Virus record (IMG/VR): IMGVR_UViG_3300033816_001097
Coordinates: 1 to 34,648 of that record
DNA: 34,648 nt
From: a virus
Strand: one strand, 5' to 3'
This document shows positions 21,785 through 34,648 of this stretch, one piece after another. How positions within the stretch are numbered: position 1 is the first letter of the stretch; each line of letters begins with the position of its first letter. The notes under the pieces were generated by a model, which worked only from the letters and a program-made list of their open reading frames with translations, was not told where the DNA came from and searched no databases. Both the position numbers and the translations under genes were made by a program.

Positions 21785-21814
21785 ACAACTCCCGAAAGGG
21801 AGTTGTTTCTTTTT
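21785..21814 (+). terminator. Intrinsic terminator after guaC
   Basis: Perfect 9-bp stem ACAACTCCC-GAAA-GGGAGTTGT followed by TTCTTTTT. The last Ts of the tract are the first bases of the next gene's TTGACA box. Confidence 0.93.
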
Positions 21815-21840
21815 GACAAATGCAGAACTGGGTATATAGT
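21813..21840 (+). promoter_or_regulatory. sigma70-type promoter, near-leaderless
   Basis: TTGACA (21813-21818), 16-bp spacer, TATAGT (21835-21840), then 8 nt to ATG 21849. No Shine-Dalgarno fits. Confidence 0.7.
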
Positions 21841-21848
21841 AGAAATCT

Positions 21849-22409
21849 ATGAACATCTTTGTACTTGACAATGACGCCGCTACGTCCGCTCGCATGATGT
21901 GTGATAAGCATGTAGTTAAAATGATTCTTGAATCCTGTCAGTTGCTTTCAACCGCACATCATGTGCTTGACGGGGATTCCTTGTACGTAAATACAGGTAA
22001 GCGCAAGTACAAAACTTATATTTGTACTAAGAAAAATATTTGCAAAGCAACTATGGTAAATCATCCATGTACTATATGGACGCGTGAAACAAGATCAAAT
22101 TATATTTGGCTTTGGAGACATGCATATGCTTTGTGCAAAGAATATACCCGCCGATATAATAAAGTTCATGCAATGGAACAAATGCTTATGGATGAACTTT
22201 ATGATCCGCCATTGAATATTGCTAAAGGTAAAATTACACCATTTGCACAGGCGATGCCAGATCAGTATAAAGATGAAAATGCTGTGGTTGCTTATCGCAA
22301 ATACTATATCAACGAGAAGGTGCGTTTTGCGAAGTGGAACTACTCTGAGGAACCTGAGTGGTTTTCAAAAAAAGTTTTTTCTCTGTCCGAAGAGTACCTT
22401 CCCTTTTAA
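21849..22409 (+). CDS. Conserved phage hypothetical protein (MNIFVLD...CDKHVVKM family)
   Basis: 186 aa. The N-terminus MNIFVLDNDAATSARMMCDKHVVKMILESCQLLSTAHHVLDG and the block NHPCTIWTRETRSNYIWLWRHAYALCKEYTRRY are recognisable from a protein family widespread in large tailed phages. The conserved D..H..K and HP.{4}R residues look enzymatic. I recall no established function; nucleic-acid glycosylase-type labels have been attached but I cannot verify them. Expressed from its own near-leaderless sigma70 promoter and ended by a terminator, so probably an early gene. Confidence 0.82.
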   Translation: MNIFVLDNDAATSARMMCDKHVVKMILESCQLLSTAHHVLDGDSLYVNTGKRKYKTYICTKKNICKATMVNHPCTIWTRETRSNYIWLWRHAYALCKEYTRRYNKVHAMEQMLMDELYDPPLNIAKGKITPFAQAMPDQYKDENAVVAYRKYYINEKVRFAKWNYSEEPEWFSKKVFSLSEEYLPF

Positions 22410-28125: not shown

Positions 28126-28587
28126 ATGAATTACCTTCTAAATTATTATAAAAATATTTGTGAAAAATACCAACAAAAAATTATTATTTTACAAAATTAT
28201 TTAAACGAGGTTGCTGAAAGTGGTATAAATGTTGCTGGCGGTGGTTTGGCCCAAGAACCAATTCCTCAAGAAGGGGCACCAATCGGTATACCGGATATGC
28301 AAGGACCACGTGATCCATCCATTCCACCAAGTCCAATTGATTATTTTTATTGGTGTGAGGACGCTGGTTGTGATATCAATACTCCACCAGGTATAGGATT
28401 TTACGATAAAGATGGTGATGGTAAAATAAGTCCTGAAGAACGCCAAGAGTGGAATATTGATACAGAGAGATGGCATCAACAAAAAAATTTATATACAAGA
28501 CATTTTAAAGAGCATTCAAAATGGAAATCTAGCCAAAAAAGAAGAAGAGTTTCTTCTATGGCAACAGATAGTCAATACTACTCATAA
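28126..28587 (+). CDS. Putative capsid-internal protein with EF-hand loop
   Basis: 153 aa. Leader MNYLLNYYKNICEKYQQ... ends in L26-N27-E28|V, the predicted processing site. The cargo carries DKDGDGKISPEE, a textbook 12-residue EF-hand calcium loop (Asp at 1, 3, 5; Gly 6; Ile 8; Glu 12), preceded by a Cys pair (WCEDAGCDIN). The C-terminus is basic (KWKSSQKRRRVSS). A single loop could bind Ca2+ or pair with another copy; dockerin-like modules look similar. Leaderless late promoter. Confidence 0.75.
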   Translation: MNYLLNYYKNICEKYQQKIIILQNYLNEVAESGINVAGGGLAQEPIPQEGAPIGIPDMQGPRDPSIPPSPIDYFYWCEDAGCDINTPPGIGFYDKDGDGKISPEERQEWNIDTERWHQQKNLYTRHFKEHSKWKSSQKRRRVSSMATDSQYYS

Positions 28588-28605
28588 CAAATAAAATAAA
28601 ATCAA

Positions 28606-29415
28606 ATGATAAATCCATTCAACGATCAATCAAATATTTTTATAAACCCATATGACAATGCAATAAAAAAATTGCAAGAACAAAATCTTTTTAAATTCGA
28701 AGAAATATATAAAAAAAGATGTGATTTTTTAAATAAAAAAAATATAAAACTTAAAAAATATTTAGAAGAAGCAACTTCGTCATTAAACGATAGAGAATTT
28801 GGGATTAATTATGATTCCGCAGTTAACAATACTAGCTCTTCTGCTAATTTAATGATGCCTAGCCCACCACCACCAAGTTGGTGGGGTGGAAAAAATAGAA
28901 TTTCATGGAATTTCGAAAATATGCCAGATTGGTATAGAAAAATGTTTGGTAATACTAATGATTTCTCCCCAGCACCTGCAGATCGCCCCAAAGTAGGCCC
29001 AAATGAACGTGGAGTAGAGATAGAGAGAGCACCCCGTGGCCCGGGATCAAATTTTAATCATTATCCTGGAGCAGGACAGAAAAGCAGTGGATTTTATAAC
29101 GGCTGGTACAAGCCACCAAAAGAATTTCCTGTATATAGCCATCAATCATCAGTGCACACTATATTTAACTTAGACCGTTCAAGATATGTAACTACTTTGG
29201 ATGGACAAGACTTACCACAGGGTGTATTTGCAGATACTCAACCACCATATTGGCTTTGGACTTTAGGCGCACCAACACCACAATATCCACAAGGTGTACC
29301 ATATTGGTTGGATATGAATGGAGGCGCTGAGAATATGGGAGTTTGGCAGATGGCAAGTCAAGGTAGTCCGGGATATTTGAATCCTTGGGGAATATTTTTA
29401 CAAAATCCGAACTAA
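28606..29415 (+). CDS. Putative capsid-internal protein, Pro/Trp-rich, paralogue A
   Basis: 269 aa. Long (about 55-residue) charged helical leader ending KKYL53-E-E55|ATSS. The cargo is homologous along its whole length to the next gene: DREFGINYDSAVN, SANLMMP, PPPPSWWGGKNR, RAPRGPGSNF, PPKEFPVYSHQ, LGAPTP, GVPYW. Rich in Trp, Pro, Gly, Tyr, with no enzyme motif seen. No late octamer is convincing upstream (19-nt gap, AT-rich), so it is probably read through from the 28126 gene. Confidence 0.72.
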   Translation: MINPFNDQSNIFINPYDNAIKKLQEQNLFKFEEIYKKRCDFLNKKNIKLKKYLEEATSSLNDREFGINYDSAVNNTSSSANLMMPSPPPPSWWGGKNRISWNFENMPDWYRKMFGNTNDFSPAPADRPKVGPNERGVEIERAPRGPGSNFNHYPGAGQKSSGFYNGWYKPPKEFPVYSHQSSVHTIFNLDRSRYVTTLDGQDLPQGVFADTQPPYWLWTLGAPTPQYPQGVPYWLDMNGGAENMGVWQMASQGSPGYLNPWGIFLQNPN

Positions 29416-30135
29416 AATACTAAAATGCTTTTTTATCAATCCGACATTAATAATACTATTTCAAAAATTTTTATTAAAAAATATTTAAAAGAAGCATATT
29501 CGTCAATAAATGATAGAGAATTTGGAATTAATTATGATTCCGCAGTCAACAGTACTAGCTCTTCTGCTAATTTAATGATGCCTAACCCACCACCACCAAG
29601 TTGGTGGGGTGGAAAAAATAGACTTTCACAGTGGTTCGCTGGTGAACGAATGCCAGATTGGTATAGAAGAATGTTTGGTTATGGTGATCCCCCAGCAGAT
29701 CGCCCTAGATTAGGCTCAAGTGAACGTGGAGTAGAGAGAGCACCCCGTGGCCCGGGATCAAATTTTAGTCATAACCCTCTTATATTTCGTAAACCGGGTG
29801 GACAATATAATGGCTACTGGTTGCCACCAAAAGAATTTCCTGTGTATAGCCACCAAGCAGAAGCACACACTTTATTGGGCTTAGACCGATCAAGATTTTT
29901 AACTACTTGGGAAGGACAAGCATTACCACAAGGTGTATTTGTAGATAGTCATGGACCACCACATTTATTCTGGACTTTAGGGGCACCAACACCAGATTAC
30001 CCAGAAGGTGTACCATATTGGATAGATTATGCTGGAGAATTTACTCCTGATAATCCAGGAGTATGGCGCATGATAAATCCGGAGCTACCGGGAAATCCTT
30101 GGGGAATTCAACCACCAGATTATAACCCCAACTAA
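28745..30135 (+). repeat. Tandem duplication of a cargo domain
   Basis: Two direct copies, about 28755-29415 and 29481-30135, encode paralogues A and B; first shared residues are KKYL.EA.SS just before the predicted processing site. Indels are confined to short linkers. Confidence 0.85.
29425..30135 (+). CDS. Putative capsid-internal protein, Pro/Trp-rich, paralogue B
   Basis: 236 aa. Cargo matches paralogue A from KKYL21-K-E23|AYSS onward (for example PPPPSWWGGKNR, RAPRGPGSNFSH, PPKEFPVYSHQ), but the first 15 residues MLFYQSDINNTISKI are replaced and are instead identical to those of the following, unrelated 30150 gene. It is therefore a cargo duplicate wearing a different leader. Upstream CTAAAATA-N5-ATG is a one-mismatch late octamer at the standard spacing. 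Confidence 0.72.
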   Translation: MLFYQSDINNTISKIFIKKYLKEAYSSINDREFGINYDSAVNSTSSSANLMMPNPPPPSWWGGKNRLSQWFAGERMPDWYRRMFGYGDPPADRPRLGSSERGVERAPRGPGSNFSHNPLIFRKPGGQYNGYWLPPKEFPVYSHQAEAHTLLGLDRSRFLTTWEGQALPQGVFVDSHGPPHLFWTLGAPTPDYPEGVPYWIDYAGEFTPDNPGVWRMINPELPGNPWGIQPPDYNPN

Positions 30136-30194
30136 ATATACTAACTAAAATGCTTTTTTATCAATCCGACATTAATAATACTATTTCAAAAATT
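29425..30194 (+). repeat. Identical 45-bp leader in two unrelated genes
   Basis: The first 45 coding bases of the 29425 and 30150 genes are identical, as is the preceding CTAAA, after which the sequences diverge into unrelated cargo. Confidence 0.88.
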
Positions 30195-30809
30195 CTTCTT
30201 GAAAAATTATTAGATGATACACCAGATCCAAGACCTCTAAAACCAAAAACCCCTTGGATGGTGGAAGGGGATTTTGTGTTTTATGGTGATCCGCCACCAC
30301 CTCCTCCTTCTGGTGTCGGACAAGCACTTGAACTTATAAATGATTATGGTATAGGTTTTCATCCATACGACTGGTTTAATAATACAAATAATCAAAATAC
30401 GACACAGGGCGAAATGCATCCAGCCATACAGTGGTTACTTGGTACAGTGGGTACTGCTGAAGGACCACTTTTATTGAGAGTATTGCAAGGATTGGCACCA
30501 ATTCCTCTTGAATGGATTCCATATTTAGCGGCTTTGGGAGTATTGGTTGTTGGTGTCGGAGGTGCTATGTATATAACTGCTGAATCTGGACAAATAATTT
30601 TAAATAATTTACCAGGTTTGCAAGAAGTAGGCTCAGGTAATGCAACTGCTTTTCAAAGAATTGATGCACCTGTATACAATGATTCCATCTACCAAAACAG
30701 CGGTATCGATCCTTTGACGGGATTGCCTTGGAATGTGATTCCACCACCTCCCCCATCTTCTTCCGGTAATGATTCTTCTTCAGGAGATGGTATAGCAGTA
30801 ATACCTTAA
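30150..30809 (+). CDS. Putative capsid-internal protein with membrane-spanning segment
   Basis: 219 aa. The leader MLFYQSDINNTISKI is shared exactly with paralogue B. L-L-E18 or L-D-D23 could be the processing site, the second being non-canonical. The cargo has PPPPPPSGVG, then a hydrophobic stretch IPYLAALGVLVVGVGGAMYI at about residues 130-149 that should span a membrane, preceded by an amphipathic LLLRVLQGLAPIP. The Pro/Ser-rich tail has PPPPPSSSGNDSSSG. If ejected with DNA it could insert in the host membrane; this is inference. ACTAAATA lies 11 nt before the ATG. Confidence 0.68.
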   Translation: MLFYQSDINNTISKILLEKLLDDTPDPRPLKPKTPWMVEGDFVFYGDPPPPPPSGVGQALELINDYGIGFHPYDWFNNTNNQNTTQGEMHPAIQWLLGTVGTAEGPLLLRVLQGLAPIPLEWIPYLAALGVLVVGVGGAMYITAESGQIILNNLPGLQEVGSGNATAFQRIDAPVYNDSIYQNSGIDPLTGLPWNVIPPPPPSSSGNDSSSGDGIAVIP

Positions 30810-30829
30810 AGTTTTTATATATTTTGTTT

Positions 30830-30837
30830 TATAAATA
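30830..30837 (+). promoter_or_regulatory. Late promoter octamer TATAAATA
   Basis: CTTTC then ATG 30843. Consensus octamer with standard 5-nt spacing. Confidence 0.78.
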
Positions 30838-30842
30838 CTTTC

Positions 30843-31547
30843 ATGGATTATTTGACAAAATATTATAAAAATTTAGCTGAAGAGCTTCAACAAAAATGTA
30901 ACAAACTTTATTTAACTTTAAATGAAGTTGCTTCACCAGTTCAATTAATGCCAGGGCAGGGTCCTGGTACTCTTGAAGGCGATCCAAATTATAGATTTGT
31001 TGGTGGTGTGGAATCCGCAGGTGATAGCGTAAGACCACAATTAATGCAATGGAACAACAATGCACAAGTTTGGAAAACTAATTTTTATAATAGTGGTTAC
31101 GCAAATGCTCCTTGGAATAATTGGGCAAGTTGGATAAATGCACTATACCAATATTGGAATAATAATGCATTTTGGAATGCAGGAATGCAAGATTTTATGG
31201 TTGGGTTGTTTGGTGATGGCTACAATTATCAATTTTTGCCAAATGGCGATATTCTTTTTACAGAAGAAATGAAACAAATTGCATATAATTGCATACAATC
31301 AATGGTTCAAGCAGGCAGTCAATCGCCAAACCAAAATGCTTCTAACGCTGCAGCACAATCTGTATTTAATTATTTCCAAGAACAATATGGAATAAAAACA
31401 TACCCGTGGTACAACGGAGAGTTTGCTCCATTCTTTACAAACTATTATCTACCAGGAGCAACTTCATTCCCACCCACACCACCGTGGCAATGGAATCCCG
31501 GTATGGGACTTCCTTTTGCAAATGCACCAACCGTTCCTGCGCCATAA
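30843..31547 (+). CDS. Putative capsid-internal protein, Trp/Asn-rich
   Basis: 234 aa. Leader MDYLTKYYKNLAEELQQ... ends L26-N27-E28|VASP. The cargo is unusually rich in Trp, Asn, Tyr and Gln (WNNNAQVWKTNFYNSGY; WNNWASWINALYQYWNNN) with a Pro/Trp tail (PPTPPWQWNPGMG). Its layout resembles the 32026 gene, though sequence similarity beyond the leader is loose. No known domain; many spaced Trp suggest an aromatic surface or carbohydrate contacts, unproven. Confidence 0.72.
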   Translation: MDYLTKYYKNLAEELQQKCNKLYLTLNEVASPVQLMPGQGPGTLEGDPNYRFVGGVESAGDSVRPQLMQWNNNAQVWKTNFYNSGYANAPWNNWASWINALYQYWNNNAFWNAGMQDFMVGLFGDGYNYQFLPNGDILFTEEMKQIAYNCIQSMVQAGSQSPNQNASNAAAQSVFNYFQEQYGIKTYPWYNGEFAPFFTNYYLPGATSFPPTPPWQWNPGMGLPFANAPTVPAP

Positions 31548-31558
31548 TATATAACAAC

Positions 31559-32017
31559 ATGAAATACGAAGAATATTATTACAAAAATCTTTGTGAAAAG
31601 TATCAAAAAAGAATTGATATTCTTGAAAGATATCTTTCTGAGGCTGGACTAAAGAAAGCTTTAAAGACCGGAAAGCCAGAACTTCTTGCAAAAGAAGGTA
31701 TAAAGCAAGGCGAAAGAAGAGAACGGCTTCTTTCAACTGCCACGGAAATGGGTCAAAGAGCTTCAGATAGTGCTCGCAAATATGGTCCAATGAGCAAACA
31801 AGTAGGTGCTGCTGGTCTACAGCAACAAGCTGCTCTTTCAAGCGCACAACAAATTGGACAAAATATCGAAGATATTGATATACAACTGGCTTCAGAAGAT
31901 CCAGAGCTAAGAAAGCGTTCAAGCGGAATGTATATGAGACAATCAATGCTGGGACCAGATGTATTCCCAGAAAGACCAATGCAAGATTATCCTCATGTTG
32001 GTTCGGCACAATATTAA
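31559..32017 (+). CDS. Putative capsid-internal protein, charged helical cargo
   Basis: 152 aa from ATG 31559; the longer frame from 31406 lies inside the preceding gene and is rejected. Leader MKYEEYYYKNLCEKYQKR... ends L26-S27-E28|AG. The cargo is Lys/Arg/Gln/Ala-rich and helical (KALKTGKPELLAKEGIKQGERRERLL, GLQQQAALSSAQQIGQNIEDID), unlike the aromatic neighbours, and could bind DNA. Upstream AATATATA-N5-ATG is a one-mismatch late octamer. Confidence 0.72.
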   Translation: MKYEEYYYKNLCEKYQKRIDILERYLSEAGLKKALKTGKPELLAKEGIKQGERRERLLSTATEMGQRASDSARKYGPMSKQVGAAGLQQQAALSSAQQIGQNIEDIDIQLASEDPELRKRSSGMYMRQSMLGPDVFPERPMQDYPHVGSAQY

Positions 32018-32020
32018 ATA
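32013..32020 (+). promoter_or_regulatory. Late promoter octamer ATTAAATA
   Basis: Overlaps the previous stop codon; AATTT then ATG 32026. Confidence 0.7.
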
Positions 32021-32025
32021 AATTT

Positions 32026-32571
32026 ATGGACTACCTAACAAATCATTACAAAAATTTATCGGAACAACTGCAAAACAAAATAAACATTTTGCAAAAAGTT
32101 TTATTAGAATCTGATATGCCACCAGTTGGTCCAGACATAGAGGGTATTGGTGATACTGCACCAATAACATCCAGAAAAGAATTTCAAGATAATGGTTTGT
32201 GGATCACACCAACTAACTGGCAAGGTCTTTATAATCAATGGCAAAAATTAAGAAACGGACCAGTTCCAAACTGGTTCCTTGCCGAATATTGGGGAGGGCT
32301 TCAATCAAATGGTGGGACTTGGGGATCAGTAGCAGATGCTTGGGACAATTTCTGCGCACAATTGTTGGGAGCAATAAGCAGAGCTGGTCAATACAATAAT
32401 CCAGAAATATACTGGGACATTCAAAGCCAGTGGCAGTATTATACAGCCCAAGCAAATAATGGTCAACCACTACCATTCCCCGTACGACACGGTGGACGCT
32501 ACACTCCACAAATTGGCATGCACCAAGTAGGCGGAAGAATAAATTATATTGAACCACATCCAAATATGTGA
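32026..32571 (+). CDS. Putative capsid-internal protein, Trp/Gln-rich
   Basis: 181 aa. Leader MDYLTNHYKNLSEQLQN... ends L26-L27-E28|SDMP. The cargo has spaced Trp residues (LWITPTNWQGLYNQWQKLRNG, NWFLAEYWGG, IYWDIQSQWQYY) and a Pro/His/Gly tail. Composition similar to the 30843 cargo; no catalytic motif. Followed by a strong terminator. Confidence 0.72.
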   Translation: MDYLTNHYKNLSEQLQNKINILQKVLLESDMPPVGPDIEGIGDTAPITSRKEFQDNGLWITPTNWQGLYNQWQKLRNGPVPNWFLAEYWGGLQSNGGTWGSVADAWDNFCAQLLGAISRAGQYNNPEIYWDIQSQWQYYTAQANNGQPLPFPVRHGGRYTPQIGMHQVGGRINYIEPHPNM

Positions 32572-32603
32572 TTATTATTCAATAATTCAAAAACAAAAAA
32601 TAA

Positions 32604-32631
32604 GGGTCCCCAAAAGGGACCCAAATTTTTT
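32604..32631 (+). terminator. Intrinsic terminator inside the leader-gene array
   Basis: Perfect 7-bp stem GGGTCCC-CAAAA-GGGACCC followed by AAATTTTTTT; splits the array before its last two genes. Confidence 0.9.
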
Positions 32632-32658
32632 GTTAAAATTTTTATACCAATACATTTA

Positions 32659-32666
32659 TCTAAATA
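32659..32666 (+). promoter_or_regulatory. Late promoter octamer TCTAAATA
   Basis: TTCTT then ATG 32672; this site rejects the in-frame start at 32549, which lies upstream of the preceding terminator. Confidence 0.75.
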
Positions 32667-32671
32667 TTCTT

Positions 32672-33127
32672 ATGGATTATTTGACAAACTATTACAAAAA
32701 TCTCTGCGAGCAACTTCAAAATAAACTAAATTATCTGGAACAAATGATCGCAGAGGCCAGACGGGGAACCGTCATGGTAGATGTAGATGACATCGAACGC
32801 GACGAGGGAGGTGACAGTATCATCGTCGGCAGACTCGCATCAGGCAAGGGTGCCAAAACCGAAAGAACGATCACCTTCTACCCACAAAAAGAGCATGACA
32901 TGGATGACTACCGCAATGCAGCCAAAATCGGCGCAGAGCCAATGGAAATTCGTTCAAACGAGATCATGCACGAACCAAGGGAAAGAGGACACAATGTACG
33001 TGGCGCAGGCGCAAAGAGAGTAAAGAAAGAAATCGCACAGCACGGCGCAGAACTCAAGAAGCCAATGAGCGAACGCGGCGAAATCAGCTTCGACGCAAGA
33101 AACGCCCGTCGCCAAGCAAACAGATAA
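32672..33127 (+). CDS. Putative capsid-internal protein with GC-rich charged cargo
   Basis: 151 aa. Leader MDYLTNYYKNLCEQLQNK... ends I26-A27-E28|ARRG. The leader is AT-rich like its neighbours, but from the processing site on the DNA switches to GC-rich codons (GAC, GGC, CGC, ATC). The cargo is highly charged: VDVDDIERDEGGDSIIVGRL, HEPRERGHNVRGAGAKRVKKEI, DARNARRQANR, with a basic end. No domain recognised; nucleic-acid binding is possible. It looks like a foreign cargo placed behind a resident leader. Confidence 0.75.
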   Translation: MDYLTNYYKNLCEQLQNKLNYLEQMIAEARRGTVMVDVDDIERDEGGDSIIVGRLASGKGAKTERTITFYPQKEHDMDDYRNAAKIGAEPMEIRSNEIMHEPRERGHNVRGAGAKRVKKEIAQHGAELKKPMSERGEISFDARNARRQANR

Positions 33128-33147
33128 TTTTTATACGAATAAATCTA

Positions 33148-33155
33148 TCTAAATA
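33148..33155 (+). promoter_or_regulatory. Late promoter octamer TCTAAATA
   Basis: TTCTC then ATG 33161; the promoter and the first 30 coding bases nearly duplicate the cassette at 32657. Confidence 0.75.
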
Positions 33156-33160
33156 TTCTC

Positions 33161-33562
33161 ATGGATTATTTGACAAACTATTACAAAAATTTATGTGAAC
33201 AATTACAACATAAAGTGAATAAGCTTTCTTTTACAAGAAAATTGTTAAATGAAAGTGATACCCCCACCCAATTTCCAGTTCAAGATAAACCAGGCGGTCC
33301 TTTGTATGTGCCCGGGAATCCTTATTGGGAACCAGCTCGGCCACCAATTCGGCCATCAGTTTGGCCACAAGATTGGCGACATCCTGGCGGAATAATTGAT
33401 CATGAATACCCGACTCTGCCTACTCTGCCTCCTTACCCTGTCTGGGAACATGATAGTGACCCCCCTCCAGGTTGGGATGGATGGTGGCCCGATGCCCCAC
33501 CCGGTGATCCAAGAAGTATTCCACCTGATACTTGGCCTCGTAAACCCCCCGCTGTAGGATAA
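33161..33562 (+). CDS. Putative capsid-internal protein, Pro/Trp-rich
   Basis: 133 aa. Leader MDYLTNYYKNLCEQLQHK... has a 3-residue insertion and ends L29-N30-E31|SDTP. The cargo is about one quarter Pro with regularly spaced Trp (YWEPARPPIRPSVWPQDWRHPGG; GWDGWWPDAPPGDPRS), probably extended or polyproline-like. Last gene of the array, followed by a terminator. Confidence 0.72.
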   Translation: MDYLTNYYKNLCEQLQHKVNKLSFTRKLLNESDTPTQFPVQDKPGGPLYVPGNPYWEPARPPIRPSVWPQDWRHPGGIIDHEYPTLPTLPPYPVWEHDSDPPPGWDGWWPDAPPGDPRSIPPDTWPRKPPAVG

Positions 33563-33591: not shown

Positions 33592-33625
33592 TTTTGGGCT
33601 CCTTCCGGGGGCCCAAAATTTTTTT
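33592..33625 (+). terminator. Intrinsic terminator closing the array
   Basis: TTTTGGGC-T-CC...GG-G-GCCCAAAA stem with one T-G pair, followed by seven Ts. Confidence 0.9.
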
Positions 33626-33695
33626 AGGGCATACCATGTATTTTAAGGTTTGGGGTGGAGGGGGGTGGCCAAAAAATTTTTAGACCATCAAGGAT

Positions 33696-33725
33696 ATTTG
33701 AAAAAATTTGAGAAAATTTGAGAGG
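33696..33725. repeat. Three tandem 10-bp units, helically phased
   Basis: ATTTGAAAAA, ATTTGAGAAA, ATTTGAGAGG in direct succession. Phasing of short A-tracts at 10 bp suggests a bend or protein-binding iterons. Confidence 0.65.
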
Positions 33726-33826
33726 GACGGGGAGCTAGCCGTTTTTATCGGACGCCGCCAGATGGGACCCAAATTACTACTCGGACACCGCTAAAATAAC
33801 TAAAATAATTTTTTCAAATAACTTTG

Positions 33827-33861
33827 AAAACAAAGATGCCCCCGCCTTCGGCGGGGGCATC
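33827..33861 (-). terminator. Intrinsic terminator for the 50-aa minus-strand gene
   Basis: 11-bp perfect stem GATGCCCCCGC/GCGGGGGCATC with a 5-nt loop; read on the minus strand it is followed by TTTGTTTT. Confidence 0.88.
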
Positions 33862-33874
33862 TGGTGGGCTGGGG

Positions 33875-34027
33875 TTACTGGCCCCAGTACCAGTCCCAGT
33901 AGGTGTCCTCCTCTGGGGCCTCGGCGTATTCCCTTTCTTCGTCCGGATTCGCGTTGCGCTGGGCGAGACGAATCTCAACGGGGCGAATAGTTTCGAAGAG
34001 CGATTCGATGTAGGTGATGCTGTCCAT
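33875..34027 (-). CDS. Unknown acidic 50-aa protein (leaderless)
   Basis: Starts at ATG 34027 (MDSITYIESLFETIRP); the longer frame from 34069 runs back through the promoter and is rejected. Very acidic, with an aromatic end EEDTYWDWYWGQ. Encoded by GC-rich DNA unlike the late genes. Own promoter, own terminator, no ribosome site. Acidic small phage proteins sometimes act as inhibitors or DNA mimics; nothing here proves that. Confidence 0.68.
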   Translation of the reverse strand: MDSITYIESLFETIRPVEIRLAQRNANPDEEREYAEAPEEDTYWDWYWGQ

Positions 34028-34033
34028 ACGCGT

Positions 34034-34062
34034 ATGATACCAGATACCTGCGTGTATGTCAA
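34034..34062 (-). promoter_or_regulatory. sigma70 promoter, leaderless arrangement (minus)
   Basis: TTGACA (34062-34057), 17-bp spacer, TATCAT (34039-34034), then 6 nt to ATG 34027. Confidence 0.88.
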
Positions 34063-34072
34063 CCCTCAAAGT

Positions 34073-34101
34073 AAAACACCACCCAAATTTTTGGGTGGTG
34101 T
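34073..34101 (-). terminator. Intrinsic terminator for the 108-aa minus-strand gene
   Basis: 11-bp stem CACCACCCAAA/TTTGGGTGGTG; on the minus strand followed by TTTTACTTT. It lies just upstream of the next gene's promoter. Confidence 0.85.
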
Positions 34102-34124
34102 GGCTAAGGGGTAGGCGGTGGGCT

Positions 34125-34451
34125 TTACATCTCGCCCCATCCCGCGCTCGCTAGCCAGTCGTTGTCTGCGTCCCAGTCCTCGCGGCTCATCCGGCTAGCC
34201 GCATCGCTGAACGCTTGGTTGTCGGCATCGCGCTCCGCGTCATCCTGAGCCTTGCGCTCCTCGCCGTACCCGGCGATCTCCCATCGGTTCTCACGGGATC
34301 CCGTGGGCTTGGCCTCGCGCTTCGCCTCGCGCTCCCGCTCCTCCTGCTCCTCGCAGGAGGGGCAGGGTCGATCATCGTAGGCGTACTCCGGGCGGTGGCA
34401 CTGGCAGGGGAAGTGTTCGTGTTCGTGGTTGTGGGTGGTGCTGTTGTGCAT
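34125..34451 (-). CDS. Unknown His/Cys-headed acidic protein (leaderless)
   Basis: 108 aa from ATG 34451 (MHNSTTHNHEHEHFPCQCHRPEY). The N-terminal 40 residues pack His and Cys (HNHEHEH, CQCH, CPSC) and could bind a metal. The rest is a highly charged helix (EEQEEREREAKREAKP; ERKAQDDAERDADNQ) ending SREDWDADNDWLASAGWGEM. The longer frame from 34556 would read through the promoter and is rejected. GC-rich codons. No family recognised. Confidence 0.68.
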   Translation of the reverse strand: MHNSTTHNHEHEHFPCQCHRPEYAYDDRPCPSCEEQEEREREAKREAKPTGSRENRWEIAGYGEERKAQDDAERDADNQAFSDAASRMSREDWDADNDWLASAGWGEM

Positions 34452-34457
34452 GGCGGT

Positions 34458-34486
34458 ATGATACCATGCCTCGCCTTCCTTGTCAA
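34458..34486 (-). promoter_or_regulatory. sigma70 promoter, leaderless arrangement (minus)
   Basis: TTGACA (34486-34481), 17-bp spacer, TATCAT (34463-34458), then 6 nt to ATG 34451. The spacer also ends in ATGG, as in the 34034 promoter's CTGG. Confidence 0.88.
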
Positions 34487-34523
34487 GCCCTTCGTAGAAT
34501 ATTTTTTTCTTTGTTCCTACCCC

Positions 34524-34552
34524 TTGACAGCGTAGGCGGAGTCTGGTACAAT
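34524..34552 (+). promoter_or_regulatory. sigma70 promoter, leaderless arrangement (plus)
   Basis: TTGACA (34524-34529), 17-bp spacer, TACAAT (34547-34552), then 6 nt to ATG 34559. Divergent from the 34458 promoter. Confidence 0.88.
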
Positions 34553-34558
34553 CCACCC

Positions 34559-34648
34559 ATGAGCACCACTCTCCGCATCGCTTCCATCGTCTCCGTTCTC
34601 TGCGTCATCCTCTCCGCGTTCCTTGCCTTCGGGCTTGCCTACAACGGC
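34559..34648 (+). CDS. Small membrane-anchored protein, cut by window edge
   Basis: Only 30 codons are visible: MSTTLRIASIVSVLCVILS then AFLAFGLAYNG, an N-terminal hydrophobic helix that could be a membrane anchor or signal peptide. Start fixed by the promoter 6 nt upstream. No identity can be given from so little. Confidence 0.6.
   Translation, partial: MSTTLRIASIVSVLCVILSAFLAFGLAYNG

Follow-up and report, generated by a model that had tools for sequence, protein, structure and literature searches.

Leaderless translation has mostly been studied in single genes or in a few bacterial groups. In the known bacterial leaderless mRNAs (lambda cI and those of Mycobacterium, Streptomyces, Deinococcus, and Caulobacter crescentus), the −10 box lies one helical turn before the ATG, there is no Shine-Dalgarno sequence, and the 5′-terminal AUG is recognized (PMC9031893). 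Caulobacter has 375 leaderless mRNAs, which are translated as well as leadered ones and for which no specific motif was reported (PMC4117421); it prefers AUG for leaderless starts, and leaderless GUG is accepted by mycobacteria and streptomycetes (PMC9031893). CA repeats 3′ of the AUG boost leaderless translation in E. coli, as relayed by PMC9031893 from Martin-Farmer and Janssen (1999). In phage T4, the late (TATA) box begins at −13 (PMC2988020); across the 50 kb of its genome that we examined, the box tends to stand ~24 to 28 nt ahead of the ATG, so that a leader remains. Early and late phage genes are known to differ in synonymous codons (Mioduser et al. 2017, PMC5683454), and the tRNAs of phage Sf14 serve its late genes (PMC12482277). 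Within the library of papers searched, we found no report of leaderless transcripts of T4-like phages or pelagiphages.

The window, i.e., the whole stretch of 34,648 nucleotides analyzed here, is an entire 34.6-kb virus record (IMGVR_UViG_3300033816_001097) and a linear fragment. It encodes gp6-like and gp13-like T4 structural proteins, an IMPDH/GMP reductase, and a DenV-like glycosylase; the best named match by coverage for its gp6 is Pelagibacter phage HTVC008M (Kyanoviridae, NC_020484), at just 26% identity. A 64-kb record, G001, includes the window at 99.9% identity and adds about 4 kb at its right end. Searches with two small proteins from that end (108 and 50 amino acids [aa]) gave relatives' records of up to 126 kb, and the promoter pattern gave others of 137 to 146 kb. 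These relatives are mostly 35 to 40% GC and have one island of 50 to 64% GC with an array of TTGACA-TAnnnT-N6-ATG units (N6, 6 nt between the −10 box and the ATG), about 19 of which lie within 11 kb in G020; the reversed-pattern control gave zero or nearly zero matches in all 36 records. Pfam searches of the relative G014 identified T4-type portal gp20, capsid gp23, terminase gp17, tail sheath stabilizer, scaffold, UvsW, DNA polymerase, clamp gp45, and clamp loader gp44, together with ThyX and a B12-dependent ribonucleotide reductase, and a gp55-type late sigma factor was also found (phrog_234, E value of 1e-49). The terminase and portal of G014 reach no more than about 51% identity to those of named phages, with Synechococcus phages the best matches, indicating a lineage without isolates in the collection searched; island DNA had no match among named phages. 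By its gene content, the phage of the window is a member of an uncultured T4-like lineage with a T4/Kyanoviridae-like core.

The features of the window that bear on gene expression are collected in the table. All three promoter/start units at the right end have a consensus −35 box, an exact 17-bp spacer, a TG before the −10 box, and exactly 6 nt from the −10 box to the ATG, just as the earlier note had described, and the hairpin terminators that it assigned to two of the three genes are likewise present, each followed by a T run. A looser pattern (TTGACA, spacer of 16 to 18, and 4 to 9 nt between the −10 box and the ATG) matched the window four times, compared with a mean of 0.33 in dinucleotide shuffles, and none of 100 shuffles reached four. 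The fourth match is the unit at 21813 to 21851 (+), TTGACA-N16-TATAGT-N8-ATG, which precedes the DenV-like glycosylase gene and is identical in G001. The similar layout that had been suggested for this gene (at 21849), and tentatively for “guaC,” does not place either of them in the tight class: the former is N16/N8, and the latter has no consensus promoter. The units are not confined to the window, however: the pattern scan proposed in the earlier note finds up to about 20 per relative. TAnnnT-N6-ATG is kept in 18 of the 18 relatives of the 108-aa gene that were checked, with protein identity down to 41% and different spacers, and in 6 of the 7 relatives of the 50-aa gene. The 108-aa protein had no match in a Pfam search, and the third early gene, which runs off the window, encodes 64 aa in G001. 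In several relatives, the spacer between the divergent promoters contains a palindrome like AAAGAAATATTTCTTT, a possible shared UP element or operator. No known RNA family was found within the window.

Table. Positions of expression-related features in the window (1 to 34,648)
Feature	Position	Strand	Details
Late promoter, leaderless geometry	30830–30845	+	TATAAATA-CTTTC-ATG; gene 30843–31547
Late promoter, leaderless geometry	33149–33163	+	CTAAATA-TTCTC-ATG; gene 33161–33562
Terminator ending the AT-rich late arm ahead of the island	33592–33618	+	
Start of the GC-rich early island	33619–34648	.	Coding GC 0.57–0.66, versus about 0.33 elsewhere
Intrinsic terminator of the 50-aa gene	33834–33862	−	13-bp stem
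Small early gene, 50 aa	33875–34027	−	MDSITYIESLFETIRP...; GC3 0.75; relatives in 7 records
Promoter/start unit of the 50-aa gene	34025–34062	−	TTGACA TACACGCAGGTATCTGG TATCAT ACGCGT ATG
Intrinsic terminator of the 108-aa gene	34076–34101	−	11-bp stem
Small early gene, 108 aa	34125–34451	−	MHNSTTHNHEHEHFPC...; GC3 0.83; relatives in 22 loci
Promoter/start unit of the 108-aa gene	34449–34486	−	TTGACA AGGAAGGCGAGGCATGG TATCAT ACCGCC ATG
Spacer between divergent −35 boxes	34487–34523	.	37 bp; middle part AT-rich
Promoter/start unit of the third gene	34524–34561	+	TTGACA GCGTAGGCGGAGTCTGG TACAAT CCACCC ATG; divergent to the 108-aa gene
Third early gene, N-terminal part	34559–34648	+	MSTTLRIASIVSVLCVILSAFLAFGLAYNG...; runs off the window

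The distance to the start codon was scored for TTGACA-N16..18-TAnnnT at offsets of 0 to 15 in eight large relatives (main set). ATG occurs 78 times at exactly 6 nt and 1 to 8 times at each other offset; GTG (3 times at offset 6), TTG (once), and the control triplet GTA have no peak, and the runner-up triplet at offset 6 occurs 11 times. The peak was reproduced in a second set of ten further stretches (72 ATGs at N6 versus at most 7 elsewhere), of which two belong to the same protein-defined group and one, L272, is from a 66% GC phage and may be unrelated. The base before the N6 ATG is C or T in 76 of 78 cases in the main set and in 70 of 70 in the second, versus 43% of island ATGs overall, and this corresponds to a pyrimidine/purine initiator with A at +1. 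The N6 genes of the eight large records (at most one mismatch in the −35 box) fall into 58 protein families, although the contigs are related and the counts are thus partly nonindependent. With a relaxed −35 box, the unit precedes 41 of 125 island ORF calls, a set that includes false calls, and a minority of island promoters are predicted to start leadered transcripts (e.g., G019 69224, G006 52008).

An N6 distance leaves no space for a Shine-Dalgarno site between the −10 element and the start codon, and the region before the ATG has no clear AGGAG/GGAGG peak, only a weak rise of AAGGA at 4 to 6 nt. Downstream of the start, codons 2 to 6 of N6 genes are 80% A+C and 10% G, compared with 26% G in the gene body; the bias was replicated in the second set, and AGC, AAC, and ACC predominate at codons 2 to 5. 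The mean A+C content of codons 2 to 6 is 12.0 of 15 bases in N6 genes and 8.3 in other island ORFs, whose starts are less certain. Low G content and low structure right after start codons are widespread among bacteria; the A+C context therefore supports a leaderless reading but is not proof of it. A second leaderless start, GTG, was considered for G020, G023, and G034 and rejected, as their excess of GTG at N7 comes mostly from intergenic tandem promoters and not from genes. In G020, L268 (G023), and L270 (G034), many leaderless promoters are preceded, a few tens of nucleotides to the 5′ side, by another consensus promoter whose conserved transcribed start is CTACTTGGTG or TGCCTCGGTGGAATAATTTATTT.

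The best reading of these data, and in our judgment a very probable one, is leaderless early transcription from a small-gene island of a T4-like phage. This was also the interpretation of the earlier note, and it is borne out by the exact N6 distance, the pyrimidine/A initiator, the A+C-rich first codons, and the conservation of the layout. It is unlikely that transcription instead starts at −1 to −3 and gives very short leaders, so that the ATG falls within the first few nucleotides of a near-leaderless mRNA. Start-site choice by RNA polymerase does shift by 1 to 2 nt at known promoters, and the second set includes seven N7 ATGs, several with long ORFs behind them, that would agree with such leaders, but the peak lies at one exact offset, and 146 of 148 starts combine a pyrimidine at −1 with A at +1, the preferred initiator.

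A motif at a fixed distance may also be a binding site, and the palindrome between the divergent promoters of relatives would fit the idea that the ATG at +1 is a DNA element (an operator or extended promoter signature) with translation beginning downstream. We regard this as very improbable: 96% of N6 ATGs open ORFs of at least 40 codons, versus 43% of all island ATGs, similarity among the relatives' proteins sets in at this Met or close to it, and ATG is far above other triplets at this position. Even less credence is due to the idea that the GC-rich end comes from a chimeric assembly or from foreign DNA inserted recently, with no relation to the T4-like phage. The GC content rises abruptly, from about 35% to about 60%, which might suggest such an origin, but G001 carries the same junction, which makes a one-off assembly error unlikely, and diverged relatives of 79 to 146 kb have one such island beside or flanked by AT-rich DNA, with an equivalent GC step.

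The geometry is repeated at the late promoters. An ATG stands exactly 5 nt after the sequence [CA]TAAATA (N5) in 82 cases; 95% of these ATGs open ORFs of 60 codons or more, and the base at −1 is T or C in 77 of the 82. Since the T4 late box begins at −13, an N5 distance would put the A of the ATG at +1, so that the remark in the earlier note that the late promoters share the leaderless layout stands. In HTVC008M, late boxes peak at N5 too (13 whole-genome matches versus 2 in the control), but there is no array of sigma70-N6-ATG units (3 loose-pattern matches in the genome); the leaderless late geometry may therefore be common to the HTVC008M group, whereas the sigma70 array is not. This suggests that leaderless late mRNAs may occur in a cultured phage. 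The late boxes of cyanophage DSL-LC02 have no offset peak. At 28126 to 33562 (+), the window contains a run of late genes whose proteins share an N terminus like MDYLTNYYKNLCEQLQ and, after it, an L-x-E-type site (LNE, IAE) but differ in their C-terminal parts. These N termini resemble the capsid-targeting sequences of T4 internal proteins, which are cut by the prohead protease, making the products candidate injected phage proteins.

Early and late genes are also partitioned by codon usage. The mean GC content is 0.59 in early N6 genes and 0.37 in late N5 genes, and AGA, ATA, AAA, CCA, and ACA are about 16- to 28-fold more common in late than in early genes. The phage tRNAs include Arg-UCU, Ile-UAU, Lys-UUU, Pro-UGG, Thr-UGU, Gln-UUG, and Gly-UCC; AGA, ATA, AAA, and CCA, avoided by early genes and favored by late ones, are among the codons decoded by phage tRNAs. 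Several island tRNA genes lie directly 3′ of the same type of promoter as the N6 genes. Just 5′ of tRNA-Lys, a stretch of ~165 nt with its own TTGACA/TACAAT promoter is 95 to 99% identical in otherwise diverged phages (L069 7278 to 7442 [G020], L055 from 3891 [G001], and L031 near 2472 to 2663); it matched no Rfam family and is a candidate conserved phage RNA.

From these sequence features we infer the following scheme, in which start sites, timing, and leaderless translation are predicted. The end of the window would belong to the immediate-early region of an uncultured T4-like phage, as its first kilobase. This region is an array of small genes, and many of these have a host-sigma70 promoter of their own, at which RNA polymerase would start at the A of the ATG. 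The early mRNAs would be leaderless and would be read via recognition of the 5′-terminal AUG by 70S ribosomes or initiator tRNA, aided by the A+C-rich, G-poor stretch directly after the start codon. Early genes are written in GC-rich codons, presumably suited to a GC-rich host, and the tRNAs of the island, whose genes lie behind the same promoters, decode the AT-rich codons needed by late genes. The gp55-like sigma factor would then activate T4-type late promoters, many of them with +1 on the ATG. Chances are about even that this T4-like lineage largely dispenses with Shine-Dalgarno initiation and has leaderless mRNAs both early and late, together with two codon languages, in which the early island, matched to a GC-rich host, supplies tRNAs, and the genome a tmRNA, for AT-rich late translation.

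The part of the earlier interpretation that lacks support, apart from the two genes excluded above, is the suggestion of an Actinobacteria- or Deinococcus-type host. We rejected such a host in view of the near-exclusive use of AUG starts, the permuted tmRNA, and the T4/Kyanoviridae core; the glycosyltransferase and FkbM genes found also lend it no support. GTG at N6 is at background, unlike GUG use of the mycobacterial or streptomycete type. Four relatives (L058, L067, L070, and L073) have a permuted two-piece tmRNA and not the one-piece form expected for Actinobacteria or Deinococcus, an argument that assumes that the phage copy mirrors that of the host. Tags predicted by ARAGORN in relatives include ANELAMAA and AEELAIAA. 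Efficient translation of leaderless mRNAs is also seen in alphaproteobacteria such as Caulobacter (PMC4117421). Alphaproteobacteria have a two-piece tmRNA, and a GC-rich proteobacterium is a possible host; the host may also be a picocyanobacterium, and no direct link to any host emerged. Kyanoviridae cyanophages of picocyanobacteria often carry psbA/psbD, and no photosystem gene (PF00124) was found in 14 relatives, several of which exceed 100 kb. A cyanophage with photosystem genes was rejected on these grounds, although a lack of psbA alone does not exclude a cyanobacterial host. A strict promoter scan of bacterial genomes gave 85 scattered matches, many in Clostridia, with at most two N6 units per locus and no similarity of these loci to the phage N6 proteins.

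The conserved leaderless-type early island of this T4-like lineage is, as far as its sequence tells, a new variant of known leaderless expression. With bacterial leaderless mRNAs it has in common the placement of the −10 box and the lack of a Shine-Dalgarno sequence, the A of AUG as the predicted +1, and a strong preference for AUG like that of E. coli and Caulobacter (PMC9031893, PMC4117421). What sets it apart is that this layout organizes a viral early region as well as many late promoters and comes with a shared A+C-rich start context. With T4, the lineage shares the portal, capsid, terminase, clamp, clamp loader, DNA polymerase, gp55-type sigma factor, and TATAAATA-like late promoters, but T4 has no sigma70-N6-ATG array (two matches in its genome), and its late box tends to be farther from the ATG than the 5 nt found here. 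The early/late codon contrast is very large compared with the milder differences known from other phages, and the early genes are physically set apart in one island.

This virus group appears to use leaderless translation for much of its early gene set and for many late genes, and the repeated start-codon context offers dozens of natural test cases. Since the early and late genes of these genomes have opposite codon compositions, with tRNAs to match, a timed switch of the translation machinery by phages can be tested directly. The promoter geometry also provides an annotation rule that sets the start codon of very small early genes, many of which are candidates for host takeover or counterdefense. 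At the island edge of G014 (116206 to 120176), G012 (32145 to 36070), and relatives lie two larger N6-start genes, one for a candidate AAA_5 (MoxR-like) ATPase and the other for a 725-aa phage peptidase-family protein (phrog_459) with an HEISH motif.
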